61,630 nt of DNA, taken from NCBI GenBank assembly GCA_946413485.1, contig CAMKKS010000002.1:1-61630 (forward strand), written 5' to 3'. The notes beneath the pieces were generated by a model. The model saw only the letters and a program-made list of their open reading frames with translations, made no database searches and was not told the origin of the DNA. The stretch's first letter is position 1. Each line of letters begins with the position of its first letter. This DNA comes from an uncultured Rickettsiales bacterium (GTDB lineage Bacteria; Pseudomonadota; Alphaproteobacteria; Rickettsiales; Deianiraeaceae). The position numbers were made by a program, and so were the translations under genes. Below are positions 31,489 through 46,445 of this stretch, piece after piece.

Positions 31489-31619
31489 TTTCGGCAATCC
31501 CACCAAATTACTGCCATGATAACACAAATAGTCAAACCGAGAATTAACAACGCGACGGGGTCATCCCCGCCGTGTAATCTCCCGTGTGAAGCTAAAATAA
31601 AAGGTGCAACGTAAATCAT
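31485..31619 (-). CDS. 44-residue membrane protein
   Basis: A short gene coupled on both sides through ATGA overlaps with the 31616 and 31024 genes. After a polar N-terminus with SHGRLHGGDD it has one hydrophobic segment (VALLILGLTICVIMAVIWW) and ends DCRK. Local base composition is unusually GC-rich (GGCGGGGATGACCCCG), unlike its neighbours. Confidence 0.6.
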   Translation of the reverse strand: MIYVAPFILASHGRLHGGDDPVALLILGLTICVIMAVIWWDCRK

Positions 31620-32089
31620 AAATGTATTCCAAACGGAACAAACTCGCCATTTACTTTTATCTCAAAATTAGATAAAAGTTCGTTCATCGAATAAGTGTGA
31701 CATCCAATGTCTAGAGTTGTATAACCATCTTTACAAACATTATATCCTGTAAAAATTCCAACAGGCTCACATTCAAAACGTTTATTCTTTAAATATATAA
31801 CATCTCCAAGTTTAAATTTTTTCAAAAATTCTTTAGCGGTAAATTCTCTAAATTCAGGTTTAGCAACAAAAATTGTGAAAAAATGGCACCATTCAAAACC
31901 GTTATCAGTTTGAATACAAAACGGATAAATGTTTTTATCATCAACTTTAATTAGAATTCCACTTTTAAGTTTTTCAATATTTGAAAAATCCTTCATAAGA
32001 TTTGAAAATAAAACCTTTTCACCTATTAAAGGTTCGGTAGTATCAAAAATATTATAAATGGGAAACTTAATAAGTTTATCTACATCCAT
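31616..32089 (-). CDS. PFG-family paralogue 2
   Basis: A 157-residue member of the paralogous family (others at 27150, 54190, 54781, 55325). It has GEKVLFSNLMKDFSNIEKL near the N-terminus, EFREFTAKEFLKKFKLGDVIYLKNKR in the middle, and ends NGEFVPFGIHL. Function unknown. Early cluster, with ATGA coupling to the 44-residue gene. Confidence 0.65.
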   Translation of the reverse strand: MDVDKLIKFPIYNIFDTTEPLIGEKVLFSNLMKDFSNIEKLKSGILIKVDDKNIYPFCIQTDNGFEWCHFFTIFVAKPEFREFTAKEFLKKFKLGDVIYLKNKRFECEPVGIFTGYNVCKDGYTTLDIGCHTYSMNELLSNFEIKVNGEFVPFGIHL

Positions 32090-32099
32090 AATTTTTCCT

Positions 32100-32345
32100 T
32101 TAGAGTTCTATAACATTCAATTCAACAGAAGGGTCAAGATCTTCATGTTCGACTTCTTCAAAAATAAAATCGTCTAAAATGTCTTCAATATCTCCGTTTT
32201 CTTTAATTTCGTTAAATGACTCGCAAGCGTCTTCATAACCCTGCCAGTTATCAACACCATTATTTAACAAGCAATCTAAAAATTCAACATCTTCAATTAA
32301 AGATCTCAATTCACCTTCAGTTAAATGATAAATCTTTTCTTTCAT
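32100..32345 (-). CDS. Acidic early protein
   Basis: Unrecognised 81-residue, very acidic protein (many Glu/Asp, DDFIFEEVEHEDLDP near the end), which could mimic DNA or bind a basic host protein. It is first in the 29169-32345 cluster, behind a TTTACA-17-TATAAT promoter. Confidence 0.6.
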   Translation of the reverse strand: MKEKIYHLTEGELRSLIEDVEFLDCLLNNGVDNWQGYEDACESFNEIKENGDIEDILDDFIFEEVEHEDLDPSVELNVIEL

Positions 32346-32393
32346 ATTTAATTTCCTTTAATATCGAAAAATTTAAACATTTTTAATTCTCTT

Positions 32394-32422
32394 ATTATAT
32401 AATAAAATAAAGAATTTGTAAA
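32394..32422 (-). promoter_or_regulatory. Early promoter
   Basis: TTTACA (32417-32422) and TATAAT (32394-32399), 17 bp apart. Confidence 0.75.
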
Positions 32423-37361: not shown

Positions 37362-40300
37362 TTAATTATAAGTTACCTGTTCATTATCTGTGATGCACAA
37401 AATTTTTCCGCTGAATTGTGTTATTTTTGTTGACAAATCTGAAATTTGAGTATTATCAGAAAACATTTTAACATCCATCGAATCGGTAACATTTGTTGTG
37501 TCAAACACATAATAACCAAATTCATTTTTAGAAAGAACTTCCTCAACACCGTCAATATTCACTGTTAAATTCGGTAATCTCACACTTGATATCCAAATTT
37601 CGGTTGCTAACGGATCGTGCCAGGTATTATCATATTTTAAAACAAAGTTTGTTATTCCAACAGTATATGATTGATGAAGCTCAATACCTAAAAATCCGCC
37701 TGGGCAATGTTGAATCTCATCAAATTCAGCTTGAGCTGTTAGAATTTCATTCATATACCTTTTAAATACTCTACCTTGTCTAACAATTCTTATGTGGATT
37801 TTTTCGTAATAATAAAATCCGCCGGTATTAGAATATAATTGATCCATGTCAACTTTTCTGGTAAAAAAGCAGCCATTGTCATAGGATGAGACCGATGTGT
37901 TGTCAACTCTAGCGGTTTTACCAAAACCTAATCTAAAGTGAACACCGTAAGTGTAAGGCTGGCAAACATTTTCATTTGTAAATTCTTCAACAGTCTCAGG
38001 AAGTTTCTTAAATCCAAACCATAATGTTGGGACATTTGAATATGAGCTTTCGACCATATCAAATTCTACTTCAAAATCTTTAACAGCTGGAAGGCTTAAA
38101 AGAATAAGGTTCCTGTTTGAAATACTACTTTTAATTCTATTCATAACAACATATTGATTGTTATCTCCAAATGTTGAACAATCTACGCCGTTAACGGTGT
38201 TGGAAATTGTCACATCTAATTCAGTGTCTAAAACCTTAGATCTTAAAGGATTTTGAATATCTGAAACAAGCTGAGAATTTGTCAGATTAACAGTGTTAGC
38301 ATAATCAGGGTGGATTAACTTCTTAATTCCTTCTAATCCACCGTAATCTTCAATCGCTCTGAATGAATCAGCGTAGTATGACCAGTTTGTGGTTGTTTTG
38401 TAGTTTTCCAAAAGAGCTCGAGGAACGTAGATATAACCTTCACGTTTCTGTTTGATGTTATTTGCTATCGGTTGATTTTCCAAAGGGGCAAACGGTGTTT
38501 CATAGAAAGCGTTCTTATCAATTAGAGAGCAGACTGTCTCATCACCAGCTAAAATTAAAGCTTTAAGATTATAACACCGTCTAAAGTGTTCAGCATAATA
38601 ATTGGTTCTTCCAATTGTGTAAGCAGAATCAAAATAAGCAATTTCCAGATTTTGACACCCATAGAAAAATTTGTCGTTTATATAATTTAAATTCTTTATA
38701 TAAGCTTGAGTTACCCACGAACTTTCAAAAATACCATCATACGGATAATCAGGAATTGTTAAATACGAGCTTTTAAAAATCGCAAAGAAAGCACCTTCAA
38801 ACATCGAATAACAATAATACTGTAAATTCGGTGCGATTAAATCCACATCAAAAGTATAATCATCGGATTTATAAGTAATATATCTAAAAAAGTACCTTAA
38901 TCTTCCGTTAACCTTAGGTAATCTTAATTTTTTTAAATTCTTTATATTATAAAATGCTGCACACCAGTCAGAGCTTGTTAACAGTTCAGGAAGTTCAATC
39001 TCTTCACAAACACAACCGTGAAACACATCATCATTCATTGTTTTAACATTAGGTAAAAAGTTTATTTTTCCACGAGGACCAAAATTTGAATAAGCAAACG
39101 CACTTTGGTCTAATGTTTCAAGGTTAGGAAAATAAAAATCTTCAGTTGTGTAATGGCATGCCTTGTTTGCAAAAGAATAATAACCGGCTCTTTTCAAATT
39201 AGGCATGTTTATTTTTCTTAAAGCAGAACAATCACGGAAACAATAGTTGCCTGTTGTTTCTAACAAAGGCATGTCAATTTCCTCAAGATTTTGACACTTT
39301 TCAAAAACCGATGATCCTAAAGAAGTAATTAAAGGCAATGAAATTTTTGAAAATCCTGCTTGAGTAAAAGCAGAGTTCCAAATTGATGTAACTTTATTTA
39401 AAGCTAAAGTTCCGCGCATCTTTCTTAAAGAATATTGAAAAGCAGCGGTTTCGATTTTTTCAACATTAGGGATATTTAATTCAGCAATAGTTGACCACCG
39501 GTTTGAGTGTCCTTGAAAAGCATAGCTTCGGATTGTTTTACATGCTGGAAGATTTATCTTTTCAAGCTGCATGTAGAAAGAATAATCCGATGTTGTTTCA
39601 GGCTGGAAAGCATAAGGTTCAACTATTTCAACTGACGAATTATCGAGAGTTTTAAATGCTGGATTTGTACAAAGATTGATACATTTAGCGTGAATATTTT
39701 TTAAACCAGGTGAATTTTCGTCAGTGATTTCAAATAATCTTCCTTCAGCAAAGGAAACAATAGGATTGATTAAAACATTCGCAAAACGTCTTCCTTTCAT
39801 TTCCATCGAATACCACCATAATTTTTCAGGTGTGTCTTTTAACGTTGCTATTCCAAAAGGTCTGTTATTATATCTCAAATTACCTTGAAGGAAAGAATCA
39901 GTCCATGTGTGTGTTAAAGTGCCTGTATATTCAGTTGAATTTACAGTTATCTTATAATTAAAGATATTAGAAAAATTATTATTAGTTAAATCTTCGTCAG
40001 TGTAATCAAGCTCAACTGTAATATCAAGATCTGCGTTAGGTTCTAGGTCGCAGATATAATCTTTGAATGTTTCAGCACTGAAGTTGTTAATTCCTGATGT
40101 AGCATAGAGTTTTGAAGCTTCTACTGACAGCCAGAAAAATTTTGAAAAACAAGCATCCATGTAAGGAATGGTTTTGTAATAATAAGCTCTATCATTATAA
40201 GGCGAATTTGATGTTATTCCTAAACCGATCGAATAGGTTTTTTCAGAATCTTCAAAATTTATTAAAAAATGCTGCTTTAAAATAATTTTATCAAACGGTT

Positions 40301-40751
40301 CTGTTGTTTTATTATAATTGCAAAACTGAAATGTTGGATAATATGGGTATTCAAATGTGTTTGAAGAAAAATCGTAATAAGTATCACCATACTGATATTC
40401 ATAAACATCAGGATTTACTGGGAAAATTGAATGTAAAGAATCTTTAAATTCAAAATCTTTATCATAAAAATAATGAGAATTATAACCACGATATGTTATA
40501 AGATTTTGTCTCTTATATCGATTTTCTGTATTATCATTATAATAAAAATACATGTGAGAGTTGAAAATAAGAGCATCACCATACTTTGAACAATTGAATT
40601 TAAAAAAGTTATAATAGATATCATCAGTTTTATATTTAAAATTCAAACTTCTGATTAACGGCGGCATTTGAGATAAAGTATATTTTACGTTTGTTCCTAA
40701 TGTTTCTCTTAAGGAATCAGCAATATCTTTTATTTTTCCTTTTAAACTCAT
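37362..40751 (-). CDS. BspA-type leucine-rich repeat adhesin / tail fibre
   Basis: A 1129-residue receptor-binding candidate. A short N-terminal helix (MSLKGKIKDIADSLRETLG) resembles fibre anchors. A beta-rich region follows, then about ten BspA-type (LRR_5) repeats between about 370 and 790, recognisable as I..YAFQ..., LE.I.LP...., and A..YSF units. A linker leads to a jelly-roll or lectin-like domain (about 880-1090) with LWFGFKKL and GFLGIELH. LRR fibres are unusual in phages and suit protein or glycan receptors. Late promoter at 40773, SD AAGGATTTTC. Confidence 0.75.
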   Translation of the reverse strand: MSLKGKIKDIADSLRETLGTNVKYTLSQMPPLIRSLNFKYKTDDIYYNFFKFNCSKYGDALIFNSHMYFYYNDNTENRYKRQNLITYRGYNSHYFYDKDFEFKDSLHSIFPVNPDVYEYQYGDTYYDFSSNTFEYPYYPTFQFCNYNKTTEPFDKIILKQHFLINFEDSEKTYSIGLGITSNSPYNDRAYYYKTIPYMDACFSKFFWLSVEASKLYATSGINNFSAETFKDYICDLEPNADLDITVELDYTDEDLTNNNFSNIFNYKITVNSTEYTGTLTHTWTDSFLQGNLRYNNRPFGIATLKDTPEKLWWYSMEMKGRRFANVLINPIVSFAEGRLFEITDENSPGLKNIHAKCINLCTNPAFKTLDNSSVEIVEPYAFQPETTSDYSFYMQLEKINLPACKTIRSYAFQGHSNRWSTIAELNIPNVEKIETAAFQYSLRKMRGTLALNKVTSIWNSAFTQAGFSKISLPLITSLGSSVFEKCQNLEEIDMPLLETTGNYCFRDCSALRKINMPNLKRAGYYSFANKACHYTTEDFYFPNLETLDQSAFAYSNFGPRGKINFLPNVKTMNDDVFHGCVCEEIELPELLTSSDWCAAFYNIKNLKKLRLPKVNGRLRYFFRYITYKSDDYTFDVDLIAPNLQYYCYSMFEGAFFAIFKSSYLTIPDYPYDGIFESSWVTQAYIKNLNYINDKFFYGCQNLEIAYFDSAYTIGRTNYYAEHFRRCYNLKALILAGDETVCSLIDKNAFYETPFAPLENQPIANNIKQKREGYIYVPRALLENYKTTTNWSYYADSFRAIEDYGGLEGIKKLIHPDYANTVNLTNSQLVSDIQNPLRSKVLDTELDVTISNTVNGVDCSTFGDNNQYVVMNRIKSSISNRNLILLSLPAVKDFEVEFDMVESSYSNVPTLWFGFKKLPETVEEFTNENVCQPYTYGVHFRLGFGKTARVDNTSVSSYDNGCFFTRKVDMDQLYSNTGGFYYYEKIHIRIVRQGRVFKRYMNEILTAQAEFDEIQHCPGGFLGIELHQSYTVGITNFVLKYDNTWHDPLATEIWISSVRLPNLTVNIDGVEEVLSKNEFGYYVFDTTNVTDSMDVKMFSDNTQISDLSTKITQFSGKILCITDNEQVTYN

Positions 40752-40789: not shown

Positions 40790-41169
40790 AATATTTTTTA
40801 TAATATCTTTATATAAGAAAATTGAAAAAATTTTTTATTACGTAATGAGCTTTTATGATTTTCTCATTACGTTGTTTTTGAGTGTTTTAAAAATTTTTTA
40901 AATGTTATATAATAATAAATTATAAAAATATTTTTGATCTTTAAAAAATACGTTATGAAGATTTATAAAAAGTCTATTACGTTATTTTAAGTTCAAATAA
41001 AAAATACGTTATGAGTTTTTAAGAAAAGTCTATTACGTTATTTTAACTCAATTAAAAAATACGTATTGAGCTTTTATGAAAAGTCTATTACGTTATTATT
41101 CGGAGAATTAAATAAAAATTTTCAATTTTCTATATATAAAATATTTAAAAATATTTTAAATAAAAACAT
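40790..41169. repeat. AT block and four hairpin repeats
   Basis: No gene. A CTTTATATAAG block, a hairpin with ACGTAATGAG/CTCATTACGT arms (about 40839-40873), then three less perfect hairpins (about 40946-40985, 41002-41041, 41055-41096), then a CAATTTTCTATATATAAAATATT block. Confidence 0.7.
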
Positions 41170-41535
41170 TTAATATTGAGCGTTTTCAATATCATCAAGT
41201 AAATTATCAATTTCAGTCTTTGTGTAATAATTATTACTGTCAAAAGTGTTTTCTAAGCTCTCCAGCATTCCGTCAACTTCTGATTTTGAATAAACATCAG
41301 TGTTTACATTACTTAAAAGATTATCAACTTCAACTTTACTATAAACCGCCGTTGAATTTGCTTTATTTGCGAGCATGTTATTGATTTGAACTGCGGAATA
41401 AGTTTGAGCTTTTTCGTAATATTTCGCATCCGTCTCGGCTTTGGTATAAAAATTGTTAAAAGATTTTTTAACATTTGTTTTAATATTATTATAGATAGCT
41501 GTTAAATTATCTTTAGAAACATAAATATCACTCAT
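41170..41535 (-). CDS. Trimeric coiled-coil fibre protein
   Basis: A 121-residue fibre segment made of repeats of the type YTK(A/T)E(T/I)Dxxx or YSK(S/V)EVDxLL, a well-known trimeric fibre motif (at least five copies). The second ATG (41535) is chosen because GGGAGG lies 9 bases before it. It overlaps the upstream fibre gene by 8 bases; with it, it forms a two-gene late unit. Perhaps a fibre connector or a modular shaft. Confidence 0.75.
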   Translation of the reverse strand: MSDIYVSKDNLTAIYNNIKTNVKKSFNNFYTKAETDAKYYEKAQTYSAVQINNMLANKANSTAVYSKVEVDNLLSNVNTDVYSKSEVDGMLESLENTFDSNNYYTKTEIDNLLDDIENAQY

Positions 41536-42010
41536 TTTCATTATCCTCCCATGTGTACTCTGCCAGTTCTTCAGATGTCAAATCGCGAATTCCACCTGTT
41601 TCCTCGAGTGCTGTGATATCAGCTCGAATATCTGTTAATTCTGCCGCTAGGTCGGTAATATCACTCATTGTGTGAGTGTGCGAACCTTCTGCTTTCGAAT
41701 TCCACGAAGATATCTGATTTTGAGTCAGGTGAATTCTGCCGTTGTTTACATGTGAGTTTAATTCCGCAATTGTCGCAAAAGTTGATTGCGCATAAGCGTT
41801 TGTTATCAGATTGTCAATTCGTTCTCTATCTGTAGGGCTCAAATGAGTGTTATTTTCAGCGTGAGTCTGTAAATCAGAACCTGAGATAAATCCTGAATCA
41901 TTTGTTAAATCTGAAACTTTAGTCGGAAGAGCGTCCTCAACATAACTTGAAACAAAGTCTTTAATCTTTTTAACAAGTTTGGATAAACCGTTGATGTCTA
42001 AAACTTTCAT
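41528..42010 (-). CDS. Tail fibre protein
   Basis: A 160-residue fibre protein, MKVLDINGLSKLVKKIKDF at the start, then KVSDLTNDSGFIS, THLSPTDRERI and HLTQNQISSWNSKAEGSHTHTMSDIT. These H-x-T and WN-x-KA segments are standard in phage fibres and baseplate appendages. I use the ATG at 42010, after AAAAAGGATTT and a late promoter, because the longer frame needs a TTG start inside the promoter region. Confidence 0.78.
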   Translation of the reverse strand: MKVLDINGLSKLVKKIKDFVSSYVEDALPTKVSDLTNDSGFISGSDLQTHAENNTHLSPTDRERIDNLITNAYAQSTFATIAELNSHVNNGRIHLTQNQISSWNSKAEGSHTHTMSDITDLAAELTDIRADITALEETGGIRDLTSEELAEYTWEDNENE

Positions 42011-42030
42011 TTTAAATCCTTTTTTAAAAT

Positions 42031-42038
42031 TATTTATA
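42031..42038 (-). promoter_or_regulatory. T4-type late promoter (fibre pair)
   Basis: Exact TATAAATA on the minus strand, 20 bases before the ATG at 42010. Confidence 0.8.
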
Positions 42039-42044
42039 AAAATG

Positions 42045-42359
42045 CTCTTTAAAATAAATTTCAAGGTTCTTTATATAAAGAATATATAAAATACTTTTAA
42101 TATCGTTTAAGAACTCTTTTAAAAGCTTTTTATTTAAAATATTTTTATAATATCTTTATATAAGGAAATTGAATTTTTTTAAATACAACGTAATGACAAA
42201 ATAAGAAAAGTCCATTACGTTGTTTTTCATTAAATGAATTATTACGTAATAGACTTTTCATGAAAGTTCATAACGTATTTTTAAAACAACGTAATAAGCT
42301 TTCTGTGATTTCGAATAACGTTATAAAAATTTTTTTAAAATTGAGTTCTAGTTTTCATT
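42045..42359. repeat. AT blocks, hairpin repeats, single TTCTAG site
   Basis: No gene. CTTTATATAAAG and CTTTATATAAGGAAATTG blocks, three hairpins (about 42182-42225, 42243-42275, 42281-42325) and one half TTCTAG site at 42345. Confidence 0.65.
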
Positions 42360-43316
42360 TCATAATTTAAATTTTTTCATTTTTTTAGCAATTTCCATTG
42401 CAAAAGAAAATTTACTTCTTTGAAAATAAAAATTAGATTTACATAAAGATGAATATTTTTTTACATATTCAATTTGATTTTTAATTTTTTCTAAAAATTC
42501 AACGCTGCACTTACACAATTCAGCAATATTTAAATATCCAGAATAAGTTGTTACTGCTATTGCGTCAAAACAATGCTTAGCTGAATCCGCAAATGGTTTG
42601 TCAGTTACATTATAATGTAATGCTAAAATATTTTCAGGTAATTTTTCATTTCGCGGCATATTCGCATTTATAAATCCATGCGGAGTTAAATCATAAAATT
42701 TTTCAAAAGCTAAATTTAAAGCATCTTGATCTAAATAGATACACTTTTCAAAACCTTCTTTTTTCATTGTTTCTTGAACAGTCTTAAAAATTCCTTTACA
42801 TTTTTTTGAATTCAACATTAAAAACCCACAATTAAATGCTTTTTTCCTTTGTTTATAAAATTTATATAATGGTCTTGTTATAATTTCATGTATGTGTTCT
42901 CTTGCCATTGCTATCGGCAAATTACTTTCAAAAAAACTTTTAATAGAGTTTTCAATATTTTCAAAATAGCAAACATCAATATCAGTTTTAAAAACAACAT
43001 CATAATCTTTCATTAAAAGATCTTCAATTTCAAGATGAGCAAACATATTAACAAGTTTGGAATCATCGTATAAATTTCCGTTAAATGATTCTTTGTTAAA
43101 AAGATTATAATTTTCTTTAACAAATTTAAGTGCTTTTTTAGGTTTAAAATCAATAAATTCAACATTTGGTAAATTCTTTAAATCATCAGGAACTTTGAAA
43201 TCATCAATTTTAAAAACTTTAAAAGGTATTGGATTTTTTGATCTGAATGTTTTTAAAGCTACTCTTAAAGGCTCAATATAATCATGATCAACAACACAAA
43301 AAGCGATGCTTTTCAT
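42360..43316 (-). CDS. GT8-like glycosyltransferase
   Basis: A 318-residue nucleotide-sugar glycosyltransferase with the GT-A fold of family 8. The metal-binding D-x-D is at 112-114 (KTDIDVCY), followed by NCGFLMLNSK (162-171) and YLDQDALNLAF (194-204), which are in the right order and spacing for GT8, and a late LHYNVTDKPF. It follows the radical SAM gene (1-base overlap, GGAGGAAT site) at the end of a late fibre operon. Modification of a fibre protein or a host surface glycan is inferred. Confidence 0.75.
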   Translation of the reverse strand: MKSIAFCVVDHDYIEPLRVALKTFRSKNPIPFKVFKIDDFKVPDDLKNLPNVEFIDFKPKKALKFVKENYNLFNKESFNGNLYDDSKLVNMFAHLEIEDLLMKDYDVVFKTDIDVCYFENIENSIKSFFESNLPIAMAREHIHEIITRPLYKFYKQRKKAFNCGFLMLNSKKCKGIFKTVQETMKKEGFEKCIYLDQDALNLAFEKFYDLTPHGFINANMPRNEKLPENILALHYNVTDKPFADSAKHCFDAIAVTTYSGYLNIAELCKCSVEFLEKIKNQIEYVKKYSSLCKSNFYFQRSKFSFAMEIAKKMKKFKL

Positions 43317-44140
43317 TATTCCTCCACAAAAAATTCTATTCTTTCCTTTTTAGATTTTTTCCAAGGTGCTTCACCTAAAAATCTGCAGTGATTTTTACAG
43401 AATTTAACAGATGTAATATCAATAGGATCTTTAACATTTTCAATTTTAATATAATCTTCATTTTCAATTAACTTTTCATTTAAATTTGAACCGAATACTT
43501 TATCAACATTTTTCAGCATCGGGAAGCATGCTCCATAATATAAAATACCGTTAAATGCTCGTATACAAATAGGAAGTGTTTGATCACAACATATAATACA
43601 TTCTCTAAGTTTTGCCTTATTTTTATATTCTTCTGAGTTGCTTTCACAAAATTTATGAATTCTCATTTTGTTTCTTAAATTACAAATTCTAAAATTTTTT
43701 GCATTTTCTTTTTCATAATTATAAAATGACGTAGAATATTTAACATTATGCTTAATACATTTATTAATAATTTCATTATAATTTATTTCACTACATGAAT
43801 AAATTGTTATCCATAAATTACACTTTGACTCAGAAAGTTTTTCCCAGACTTTTTCTTTTGCCTTACTTAAATATAATCCATTTGTAAAAATGTTTACAGT
43901 TATATTTTTATTTAAAGAATTTATATAATCAACATATTTAAAAATATCTTTATTACAAAATGGTTCTCCACCGATTAAAATTGCTTCAAAATCAATACCT
44001 AAATCAGCAAAATGTTTAAAATCTTTTTTAAACTGTTCAAAATCATAAACTTCGTTGCCACAAATGCTTGCTCTCGAAGTACAATATTCACAGTTTAAAT
44101 CACAGTTTTTGTTAAGTATAAAATCAATAAAATATTTCAT
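43316..44140 (-). CDS. Radical SAM enzyme
   Basis: A 274-residue radical S-adenosylmethionine enzyme. Cys13, Cys17 and Cys20 (NCDLNCEYC) hold the 4Fe-4S cluster; GGEPF (57-61) and NIFTNGLYL follow. The C-terminal half has many cysteines (for example ECIICC, LPICIRAFNG, YGACFP, FCKNHCRF), like the SPASM-type auxiliary-cluster domain of enzymes that modify peptides or sugars. It sits between two glycosyltransferase genes, overlapping both. The substrate is unknown: a fibre peptide, a sugar, or a ribosomal-type peptide are options. SD AGGAG. Confidence 0.82.
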   Translation of the reverse strand: MKYFIDFILNKNCDLNCEYCTSRASICGNEVYDFEQFKKDFKHFADLGIDFEAILIGGEPFCNKDIFKYVDYINSLNKNITVNIFTNGLYLSKAKEKVWEKLSESKCNLWITIYSCSEINYNEIINKCIKHNVKYSTSFYNYEKENAKNFRICNLRNKMRIHKFCESNSEEYKNKAKLRECIICCDQTLPICIRAFNGILYYGACFPMLKNVDKVFGSNLNEKLIENEDYIKIENVKDPIDITSVKFCKNHCRFLGEAPWKKSKKERIEFFVEE

Positions 44141-44843
44141 TTATTCTCCTAAATAACGGTACTAAAATTCTTTTAGTATATTTTAAAGTTTTAAAAGGAG
44201 GTTTTGGAAAACCTGTTACATGTATGCTTTTTGTATCATAAACCGGTTTTTCGTAATAATTAACCGTAGAACCACAAACAATTGTATCTTTTTGCGTTAA
44301 AAAATGTATATCTTTTTGTTCTAATTGATTTGCTAAAAATTCTTCGTCCGGCCAGTGTGATTTTGTATTTTTAAAAAAATCTTCTATATCTTTAAGTGTA
44401 AAATTAAATTTATAATTTTTAACAAAAACTAATCCGGAATTTACTGATTCTGTTTTTACTCTGCTTAATTTGCCGTAAGTACATCTATGACCTGAAACAC
44501 CGTCTTCAAGATTGTCCCAAACTGACTGCATAGAATCAAAAAAGAAAACATCATTTTCAAAAAATAAAAAATTTGTATGTTTAGAAAAAATTAAAGTTTT
44601 TTCTATAAGAATATTCATTATTTTTTGAAAATATTTATTCATTACATTTTGTGCTAAATTATAATCTTTTTCTGGAAGCCTTATAATTTTTATTTGATCA
44701 CTTTTTAAAGTAAATTCTTTGTCACCGATAATATAAACAATAAGTTTATTCTTATGATATTTAAGGAATGACTTAATTGAGCCATAAGTCATTTCCTTCA
44801 CATTATCTGATAAATCAGTAATTGTTACAGCTATAAAACCCAT
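44124..44843 (-). CDS. GT-A-type glycosyltransferase
   Basis: A 239-residue protein with a GT8-like plan: FLFFENDVFFFDSM holds an E-N-D in the place of D-x-D, then SVNSGLVFVK, WPDEEFLANQLEQ and a C-terminal HVTGFPKPPF. I start at the ATG at 44843, which overlaps the end of the upstream gene, rather than the GTG at 44852. It overlaps the radical SAM gene by 17 bases. Probably adds a sugar to the same target as its neighbours. Confidence 0.65.
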   Translation of the reverse strand: MGFIAVTITDLSDNVKEMTYGSIKSFLKYHKNKLIVYIIGDKEFTLKSDQIKIIRLPEKDYNLAQNVMNKYFQKIMNILIEKTLIFSKHTNFLFFENDVFFFDSMQSVWDNLEDGVSGHRCTYGKLSRVKTESVNSGLVFVKNYKFNFTLKDIEDFFKNTKSHWPDEEFLANQLEQKDIHFLTQKDTIVCGSTVNYYEKPVYDTKSIHVTGFPKPPFKTLKYTKRILVPLFRRINEIFY

Positions 44844-45496
44844 AAATCCCACTCTATAGTTCTAATTTCGTTAATATCCTGAGAATTTTTAATTTTATCT
44901 TTTAAAATTCTTGCGTGAAGCTTAATCTCAGAATATCTTGTAATCATTAAATTATATAATTCAACAAGCTGAGAATAATTTAATTTATGAATAATATTAG
45001 AAATAGAAATAAAATCTTGAGAAACATCTTCTTTTTTAATTTTATTTTCAGCAATTAAATGATCATAATTACTGATAAAATTAGCAATAATATTTTGAGA
45101 ATCTAAAGAATAATCAAAAATATCACCATTAAAATAAATTCCATCATAAAATTTTATAAATGAATCACAATCATCATCAATATCTTGACAAAAAATTTTA
45201 TGATATATATATAAAGATAAAGGTAAATTATCTTCAAATTCTAAATAATTTTCAATTTCAATAGTATCTAATATTGATTTAATATATTTTCTAACTTTGA
45301 AAAAATTACCTTCATTTTTTTCAAGTGACTCTTCAGACTCTTTATGATAATCTACAAAAGTATAAGGGATCGTACCTTTAAAGAGTTCTCCATCTAAATC
45401 TGTAATATCAGCATTAAATGTTTTGAAATTGTTTCTTTCATTTAAAAGCGTTCCTCTTTCATTTGTATATTTTGCGTTTTCTATTTTAATATTCAT
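44831..45496 (-). CDS. Fibre-associated protein (DUF4376-like C-terminus)
   Basis: A 221-residue acidic protein. The C-terminal helical part (QLVELYNLMITRYSEIK...ILKDKIKNSQDINEI) resembles DUF4376-type domains of tail-fibre assembly and appendage proteins; the N-terminal half is unassigned. It lies directly after a fibre gene and overlaps the glycosyltransferase, so it may be the fibre chaperone or the modification target. SD AGGATTT. Confidence 0.5.
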   Translation of the reverse strand: MNIKIENAKYTNERGTLLNERNNFKTFNADITDLDGELFKGTIPYTFVDYHKESEESLEKNEGNFFKVRKYIKSILDTIEIENYLEFEDNLPLSLYIYHKIFCQDIDDDCDSFIKFYDGIYFNGDIFDYSLDSQNIIANFISNYDHLIAENKIKKEDVSQDFISISNIIHKLNYSQLVELYNLMITRYSEIKLHARILKDKIKNSQDINEIRTIEWDLWVL

Positions 45497-45508: not shown

Positions 45509-46417
45509 TTATCCCAAAAATTGCTTTGCATAGCATTGATAAATTGTTTCACTATAAGTTTGTGAACCACCACCTTGCCCACAAACACCTCCGCTGCTGT
45601 GCACTGTCCATGAATGAGTATGATGGTATGATAATCCGCTTGTTATTTTCCAAGTTCCACTTAATCTAGCACTCGGGCCTGAACCTCCATCTCCTGGATT
45701 TCCATAAAGTATGTCTCCAGAAACCAACTGACCTGAGCTTAGGTTTGTACGAAGTGTATAAACAATTCTTTCAGATCCATAAGAAGGAGCAGAGCTCGCA
45801 ATTTTCTGGTTTACATATTCAAATATCCGATTTATATTAATATCTACAGGAACACATTTATTTTGAGCTGTATTCAAAACCATTAAATAATTATTATTAT
45901 TTCCAAATTCATTCCTATCATTAGGAATTCTAACGTTAAATTGAGTTCCGCTTAAATATAAACCAGTTCCAGCGGAATAGGTTGTGTCATTATCTTGTGT
46001 TTGGAAAGAACCTAATGTTTGACCGTTGATATTCTTATATGTCACAGTTCGTCCTGAAACGGAAATACTTCCAACAGCTTGAGATTTTAAATTATTTGAA
46101 GCTGCAGTTAATTCCGCAGGGGTTGCGAACGCTGTTAAAGTTTGAGTCACAGTTCTAGTCGAAGGCGTGTATGAAATACTGGCAACACCATTACCAGAAC
46201 CAGAACTTTTTATGTTAAAATCAGTAGCTTTAATGAATTCAGCAAATGTTGACACACGGTCAAAAACATTTGAATAATTTGAATTCTTTATAAAGGTACT
46301 TCCTGAATTTTTGTTTTTAATTCTTGTGTTAGCGGCTAAAGAAGCAAACGTGTTATCATTTGCTATCTGAGTGCCGTTATCTAACGTAAAATATTGTGAA
46401 ATATCATTTATTGCCAT
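45509..46417 (-). CDS. Tail fibre protein
   Basis: A 302-residue fibre: Ser/Thr/Asn/Gly-rich beta strands, an N-terminal Ala/Asn repeat region, SISVSGRTVTYKNINGQTLGS, and a C-terminal tip with HHTHSW and GGVCGQGGGSQ, a His/Gly-rich receptor-binding type tip. Late promoter at 46438 and AAAAGGATTTTT site. It starts the operon that continues through the radical SAM/glycosyltransferase genes. Confidence 0.72.
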   Translation of the reverse strand: MAINDISQYFTLDNGTQIANDNTFASLAANTRIKNKNSGSTFIKNSNYSNVFDRVSTFAEFIKATDFNIKSSGSGNGVASISYTPSTRTVTQTLTAFATPAELTAASNNLKSQAVGSISVSGRTVTYKNINGQTLGSFQTQDNDTTYSAGTGLYLSGTQFNVRIPNDRNEFGNNNNYLMVLNTAQNKCVPVDININRIFEYVNQKIASSAPSYGSERIVYTLRTNLSSGQLVSGDILYGNPGDGGSGPSARLSGTWKITSGLSYHHTHSWTVHSSGGVCGQGGGSQTYSETIYQCYAKQFLG

Positions 46418-46437: not shown

Positions 46438-46445
46438 TATTTATA
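46438..46445 (-). promoter_or_regulatory. T4-type late promoter (fibre/radical SAM operon)
   Basis: Exact TATAAATA on the minus strand, 20 bases before the ATG at 46417. Confidence 0.8.

Follow-up and report, generated by a model that had tools for sequence, protein, structure and literature searches.

What does a radical S-adenosylmethionine (SAM) enzyme do between two glycosyltransferases in the tail-fibre region of a phage? The question is raised by a stretch of 61,630 nucleotides (nt; contig CAMKKS010000002.1, the whole stretch being called the window here) that sits in a 0.95 Mb bin assembled as an uncultured Rickettsiales bacterium. No 16S gene was found in a search of the bin. The window is a T4-like phage contig, its topoisomerase large subunit being 54% identical to that of Campylobacter phages. 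Five of its minus-strand genes, a fibre gene followed by an accessory gene and three enzyme genes, very probably form a fibre-linked glycan cassette. In the narrower reading that we prefer, with a probability of roughly 0.47, the first transferase of this late cassette attaches a first sugar to the fibre tip, and the radical SAM enzyme (rSAM) tailors a sugar rather than a peptide. All evidence is derived from sequence, and the related phages (L034, L113, L115, L212, G096 and others below) are known as metagenome contigs.

A late unit behind a tail fibre

The five genes extend from one T4-type late promoter to the next, in the order fibre, DUF4376-like protein, GT8-like transferase, rSAM, GT8 transferase:

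46438 to 46445, minus strand: predicted T4-type late promoter (TATAAATA) ahead of the five genes; the fibre ATG is 28 nt away; copies of the motif are strongly biased to starts of open reading frames (ORFs).
45509 to 46417, minus strand: predicted tail fibre, here fib1, with a variable Gly/His/Cys tip; N-terminal homology to the L115, G096 and L212 fibres; repeat TTYSAGTGLYLSGTQF.
44831 to 45496, minus strand: DUF4376-like, putative fibre-accessory protein; weak DUF4376 and phrog_3811 matches; homologues at the same position in L034, L113, L115 and L212.
44124 to 44843, minus strand: GT8-like glycosyltransferase, here GTb, proposed to act first (initiating); L115 homologue 34-36% identical; motifs; comparison with the GT8 profile.
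43316 to 44140, minus strand: rSAM enzyme, predicted Twitch type; CX3CX2C, GGE and four C-terminal Cys positions; SpeY best by profile and fold.
42360 to 43316, minus strand: GT8 glycosyltransferase, proposed to extend; Pfam GT8; DxD, NxG, QD, H...KP; LgtC best PDB match.
42031 to 42038, minus strand: next late promoter, which serves the fibre gene that comes next (ATG 42010) and so bounds the five-gene unit.

This order, and the overlap of the last four genes, had been described in an earlier note on this DNA and were confirmed from the ORFs. The fib1 stop is 12 nt ahead of the start of the DUF4376-like gene, and the following neighbours overlap by 13 nt (DUF4376-like and GTb), 17 nt (GTb and rSAM) and 1 nt (rSAM and GT8), with the enzyme motifs kept. 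For GTb, a start at ATG 44843 is more likely than one at GTG 44852.

The promoter motif TATAAATA shows no overall enrichment in the A/T-rich window (20 copies against 13.9 expected). However, 11 of the 20 copies are found 20-45 nt ahead of an ORF start, a higher fraction than for any other of 243 A/T-only 8-mers (mean 6.6%). Such a placement ahead of structural genes points to a T4-type late unit, and because the copy at 42031-42038 serves the following fibre gene, the unit comprises exactly five genes. The late promoter precedes the fibre, and none lies within the cassette, in L034 and L212 as in the window; a perfect copy directly before the cassette fibre was not found in L113 or L115. Late co-transcription with the fibre, as the earlier note had it, is thus borne out to the extent that the promoter speaks for it. 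The ORF following the second promoter (41528-42064) is listed with a TTG start upstream of that promoter, and its true start is probably ATG 42010.

The radical SAM enzyme

The 43316-44140 protein belongs to the radical SAM superfamily on two sequence motifs, CX3CX2C (C13, C17 and C20) and GGEP (G57-G58-E59-P60); the cluster cysteines and the GGE are invariant in the family alignment. Its matches to Fer4_12 and PHROG 13987 are weak; it also matches models of the MoaA type, and PF04055 is matched by its homologues and not by the window protein itself. In the C-terminal part, cysteines at C184/185, C205, C248 and C252 have counterparts in phage relatives and make up a Twitch set for one predicted auxiliary cluster, with a spacing that we take to resemble that of BtrN.

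A profile built from eight phage members was compared with all PDB sequences. SpeY, a Twitch radical SAM dehydrogenase, scored best (3.6e-16), followed by viperin-like enzymes, SkfB (3e-8) and BtrN; identity to SpeY is 17-19%, over a sequence alignment that spans the core only. The AlphaFold2 model of the enzyme also matched SpeY first (Foldseek E 1e-8, Z 15.7), with BtrN at Z 14.3. SpeY and BtrN act on aminocyclitol or sugar hydroxyls. The rSAM enzyme therefore probably acts on a sugar, either nucleotide-bound or already attached. We take a sugar as the substrate because of this chemistry, because UDP-galactopyranose mutase (UGM) fills the same slot in L115, and because other rSAMs, those of G096 and L113, adjoin an RmlD-like epimerase, a TIM barrel and a FAD oxidoreductase. 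The sugar role envisaged in the earlier note is strengthened accordingly. GT2, epimerase and DegT genes also recur among the neighbours of rSAM relatives in phage and bacterial loci, a suggestive tally, but one without background control that is not used as proof.

Glycosyltransferases and fibre proteins

Score and motifs together place the 42360-43316 protein in glycosyltransferase family 8: the Pfam GT8 match has E 7e-9 and 36.1 bits against a cut-off of 24.3, and DxD, NxG, QD and H...KP are invariant across five phage relatives. GTb and its homologues have no Pfam match, and GTb is called GT8-like by motifs and profile comparison only. It is 34-36% identical to its L115 homologue, with ENDVFF, NxG, PDE and H..G..KP conserved, and hhalign against the GT8 profile gives a probability of 63% (E 7e-5). 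Its AlphaFold2 model was unusable (pLDDT 37).

No Pfam or PHROG family is matched by fib1. Its identification as a tail fibre comes from the promoter, from the fibre-type repeat TTYSAGTGLYLSGTQF read in its sequence, and from an N-terminus homologous to fibres of L115 (57%), G096 and L212; a closer set of fibre N-termini used as query returned L115 and G096 again and nothing further. The match of the 44831-45496 protein to DUF4376 is weak and below the cut-off (E 0.0065), as is its match to phrog_3811 weak, but its L212 homologue is above the cut-off (E 6e-9) and also matches tail-fibre PHROGs. By homology, then, the protein probably belongs to the DUF4376 fibre-accessory family, and this argues against its being a direct substrate of the rSAM enzyme, as had been suggested.

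Cassettes in related phages

Related phages were reached via conserved replication genes and then via profiles. Searches with single proteins found no relatives of rSAM or GT8 in viral contigs, nor of rSAM in genome contigs. With tblastn against 50,697 phage records, nothing was found for GT8, GTb, the DUF4376-like protein, fib1, the L212 DUF4376 protein or an L034 rSAM, and the window rSAM gave weak core matches only. The UGM genes examined in three isolated phages all lie outside fibre units, and for that reason isolates provide no cultured model yet. The earlier note had raised the possibility of a cassette at home mainly in host loci, with an inactive phage copy. That is not the picture seen: the phage copy is intact, and 90 genomes (the bin's own and its relatives) yielded only two distant matches besides the window's own gene.

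The neighbourhood comparison that the note had called for supports the order fibre, DUF4376-like, glycosyltransferase, which recurs in four further T4-like contigs (L034, L113, L115 and L212); in L115, UGM occupies the place that the rSAM gene has in the window. Since the units mostly share only 25-35% protein identity, the linkage of fibre and cassette is old rather than a recent copy. In L034 the fibre, DUF4376-like and transferase genes are followed by GT8, two rSAMs and UGM, and in L115 by UGM and GT8. L113 has rSAM, epimerase, TIM barrel and FAD oxidoreductase ahead of its fibre, DUF4376-like protein and a double transferase. L212 continues after its GTb homologue with a transferase, FAD oxidoreductase, TIM barrel and epimerase on the opposite strand. 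In G096 (IMG/VR 3300001598_000033, 154 kb), a tail fibre (PHROG E 2e-18) is directly followed by an rSAM that overlaps a transferase, transferases and a DUF4376-like protein come after another fibre, and there is a run of epimerase, TIM barrel, three rSAMs and FAD oxidoreductase; the recognised transferase and cassette rSAM genes lie beside fibre genes at 13.7-28.4 kb of the 154 kb.

Two pairs of contigs indicate how the parts are inherited. L034 and L031 are nearly identical in the flanks (93.8% and 92.8-96% of nt), and between these the C-terminus of the fibre and the entire cassette have been replaced together (5.8 kb against 1.15 kb), L031 having a longer fibre and no cassette. L115 and L212 share 38% in the fibre N-terminus, as against 65% in the tip, 62% in the DUF4376 protein and 55% in GTb; their DNA match begins in the fibre tip, covers DUF4376 and ends within GTb, and their other sugar enzymes differ. 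The tip, the accessory protein and the first transferase thus make up a single unit, to which differing sugar enzymes are joined. The connection between fibre and cassette drawn from the window alone is in this way upheld, physically and evolutionarily, in related phages. The tailoring genes appear to move independently, since L115 and L034 are 81% identical in UGM and far less alike in the other cassette genes (GT8 48%, DUF4376 25%).

A complete flagellin gene lies beside fibre and glycan cassettes in two T4-like contigs, at L030 12549-13400 (G096 31549-32400) and at L115 10877-11689, the latter with a glycosyltransferase-like gene about 9 nt downstream. Flagellin matches in the phage collection are to unannotated records only, mostly small.

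A proposed mechanism and its rivals

In the mechanism that we propose, the fibre tip would be the acceptor. Produced together with the fibre, GTb would put the first sugar on residues of the tip while these are in the cytoplasm, where the DUF4376 protein may present them, and the GT8 enzyme would lengthen the chain. With SAM, the 5'-deoxyadenosyl radical and an auxiliary Fe-S cluster, the rSAM enzyme would oxidise or epimerise a C-OH of a sugar that is either still bound to its nucleotide or already part of the glycan on the fibre. In sister phages this tailoring role would fall to UGM or to the set of epimerase, TIM barrel and FAD oxidoreductase. Such a glycan would act by altering receptor binding or recognition, or by shielding the fibre. 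A broader version, in which T4-like phages glycosylate their own fibre tips in the cytoplasm with a tip-matched transferase, a radical SAM dehydrogenase tailors the sugar, the virion thereby bears a glycoprotein adhesin shaped by radical chemistry, and the set is swapped with the tip, is offered more tentatively. If the fibre is the acceptor, host range could depend on a glycan besides the fibre sequence and so escape sequence-based prediction. The mechanism would also give a testable role to many unexplained rSAM genes of T4-like phages, and blocks of tip, DUF4376 protein and transferase are small expressible units for testing.

The virion fibre has about even odds of being the acceptor, ahead of the host surface glycan. 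It is favoured because the first transferase is inherited with the tip and the enzymes after it are not constant, because several G096 fibres adjoin a transferase, and because the cassettes showed no gene for a lipid carrier, flippase or polymerase; if a protein glycosyltransferase initiates the chain, it should stay with the tip, and the tailoring genes behind it should be free to vary. Several findings weigh against this reading. The best PDB match of the GT8 family profile is LgtC (2e-4), and GT8 members of known function are mostly enzymes of lipopolysaccharide (LPS) or lipooligosaccharide (LOS) synthesis. Both transferases have basic C-terminal tails (net charge of the last 40 residues +9 in GT8 and +6 in GTb, against 0 in the body), tails of net +4 or more in that stretch occur on 6 of 11 phage transferases, and the resemblance to membrane-associated LPS transferases keeps a role at the host surface alive. 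The rSAM model is of moderate quality (pLDDT 67, much of the core 80-94), and since anSME (Z 15.1) nearly ties with SpeY in it, a peptide substrate would be possible on structure alone. Finally, a link of fibre and cassette is also expected if the cassette modifies the receptor of the fibre. In that case a late change of the host LPS or capsule glycan would let progeny avoid debris and infected cells and would exclude competitors, and the fibre would travel together with the enzymes that hide its receptor. Bacterial rSAM relatives often adjoin GT2, GT9 or DegT genes, a block of rSAM, glycosyltransferase and epimerases in Brachyspira has been assigned to LOS or glycosylation (PMC4267127), and a study of pelagimyophages reads GT8-rich host-recognition clusters in this sense (PMC7029224). 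Yet L115 and L212 have tip, DUF4376 and GTb in common and differ in the other sugar enzymes, which is odd for one shared receptor, and G096 has transferases behind several different fibres. With lipid-carrier, flippase and polymerase genes missing from view as well, we regard receptor modification as a serious but rather doubtful competitor of fibre glycosylation.

Peptide chemistry resembling that of ribosomally synthesised and post-translationally modified peptides is improbable. Here the rSAM enzyme would crosslink or epimerise residues of the Cys/Gly-rich fibre tip, one of the direct substrates suggested in the earlier note. The tip does contain cysteines in three rSAM-bearing phages (2 in the window, 3 in L034, 5 in L113) and none in L115 and L212, which have no rSAM, and anSME and SuiB-type maturases are structural neighbours of the model. 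The correlation was dropped on account of G096, where the last 95 residues of the fibre directly upstream of an rSAM are free of Cys. The profile, moreover, favours SpeY over SkfB, glycosyltransferases or sugar enzymes accompany rSAM in every unit read, and UGM takes its place in L115. It is likewise unlikely, if slightly less so, that the fibre region is a hypervariable island gathering cargo genes functionally unlinked to the fibre. T4-like fibre regions are described as hypervariable in the pelagimyophage study (PMC7029224), and the close UGM pair of L034 and L115, despite diverged neighbours, would fit; gene order and overlaps are nevertheless conserved over five diverged phages, and tip, DUF4376 and GTb are inherited as a single block. 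Glycosylation of phage DNA, as in T-even phages, would suit a T4-like phage, and the UGM genes of isolates such as Erwinia phage FBB1 do lie among non-structural genes. But the unit is late and stands behind a fibre, no hydroxymethylase was noticed in the stretches read, and the GT8 type is unlike the T4 DNA glucosyltransferases, all of which makes DNA hypermodification a very improbable explanation.

Other features of the window and related contigs

Within the fibre region of the window, 37362-40751 encodes a protein of 1129 residues with BspA-type LRR_5 repeats and its own TATAAATA promoter, a possible adhesin. A dispersed repeat, AACGTAATAGACTTTT, occurs in 22 copies (at most 2 mismatches) against 0.2 expected in the window, on both strands, e.g. 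at 1939, 14722, 21410, 28956, 40968-41094, 42206-42258, 52814 and 61413. Copies in the fibre region occupy intergenic gaps inside larger imperfect inverted repeats. The element may be a terminator or a mobile repeat.

L042 and L041 (IMGVR_UViG_3300028048_001497, 174 kb) represent a large phage whose rSAM genes lie amid genes for glycosyltransferases and DegT-like aminotransferases and a carbamoyltransferase-like gene. Phages of another group (L035, L037, L038 and L040) have a conserved pair of rSAM and GT2-like genes directly after a dUTPase-like gene. In L004 (6218-10323) an intein-like insertion that carries an endonuclease-like ORF splits the clamp-loader gene, next to a TnpB-like ORF.

Comparison with known systems

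Radical SAM and GT8 genes in host-recognition regions of T4-like phages have already been published for pelagimyophages, T4-like phages of SAR11, in which tail fibres, GT8 and rSAM genes share one host-recognition cluster, an island between VrlC and gp14; modification of the host O-chain was proposed (PMC7029224). The window resembles that hypervariable region in bringing together fibres, GT8 transferases and rSAM. It differs in its defined five-gene late unit and in the co-inheritance of tip, DUF4376 and transferase, neither of which is described in the accessible text of that paper; as a tip-matched late unit, the cassette was not found in the literature to the extent that its text was available. 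Campylobacter phages CP220 and CPt10, related T4-like phages by their topoisomerase, are likewise rich in rSAM genes (11-12), for which a role in host metabolism was proposed (PMC2853527). Unlike the window gene, the matched rSAM of CP220 (139333-140349) is not beside recognisable fibres or glycosyltransferases.

Corndog-type mycobacteriophages offer a parallel for transferases that would act on virion proteins: their operon of virion structural genes includes glycosyl- and methyltransferase genes, with a proposed role in capsid modification (PMC4351075). These transferase genes lie on the capsid side and are of different types, and no rSAM is mentioned in the available part of that paper. The block in Brachyspira hyodysenteriae likewise joins rSAM and glycosyltransferase, together with epimerases, but on a bacterial plasmid, in an LOS or glycosylation context and with no fibre (PMC4267127).

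The nearest enzymatic counterparts of the window rSAM are probably SpeY and BtrN, Twitch radical SAM dehydrogenases of aminoglycoside-type antibiotics. They appear to share with it the core and the arrangement of C-terminal cysteines, and SpeY is the best match in sequence and, closely followed by anSME, in structure. The window enzyme stands apart from them in its distance (17-19% identity to SpeY) and in its place within a phage fibre unit.

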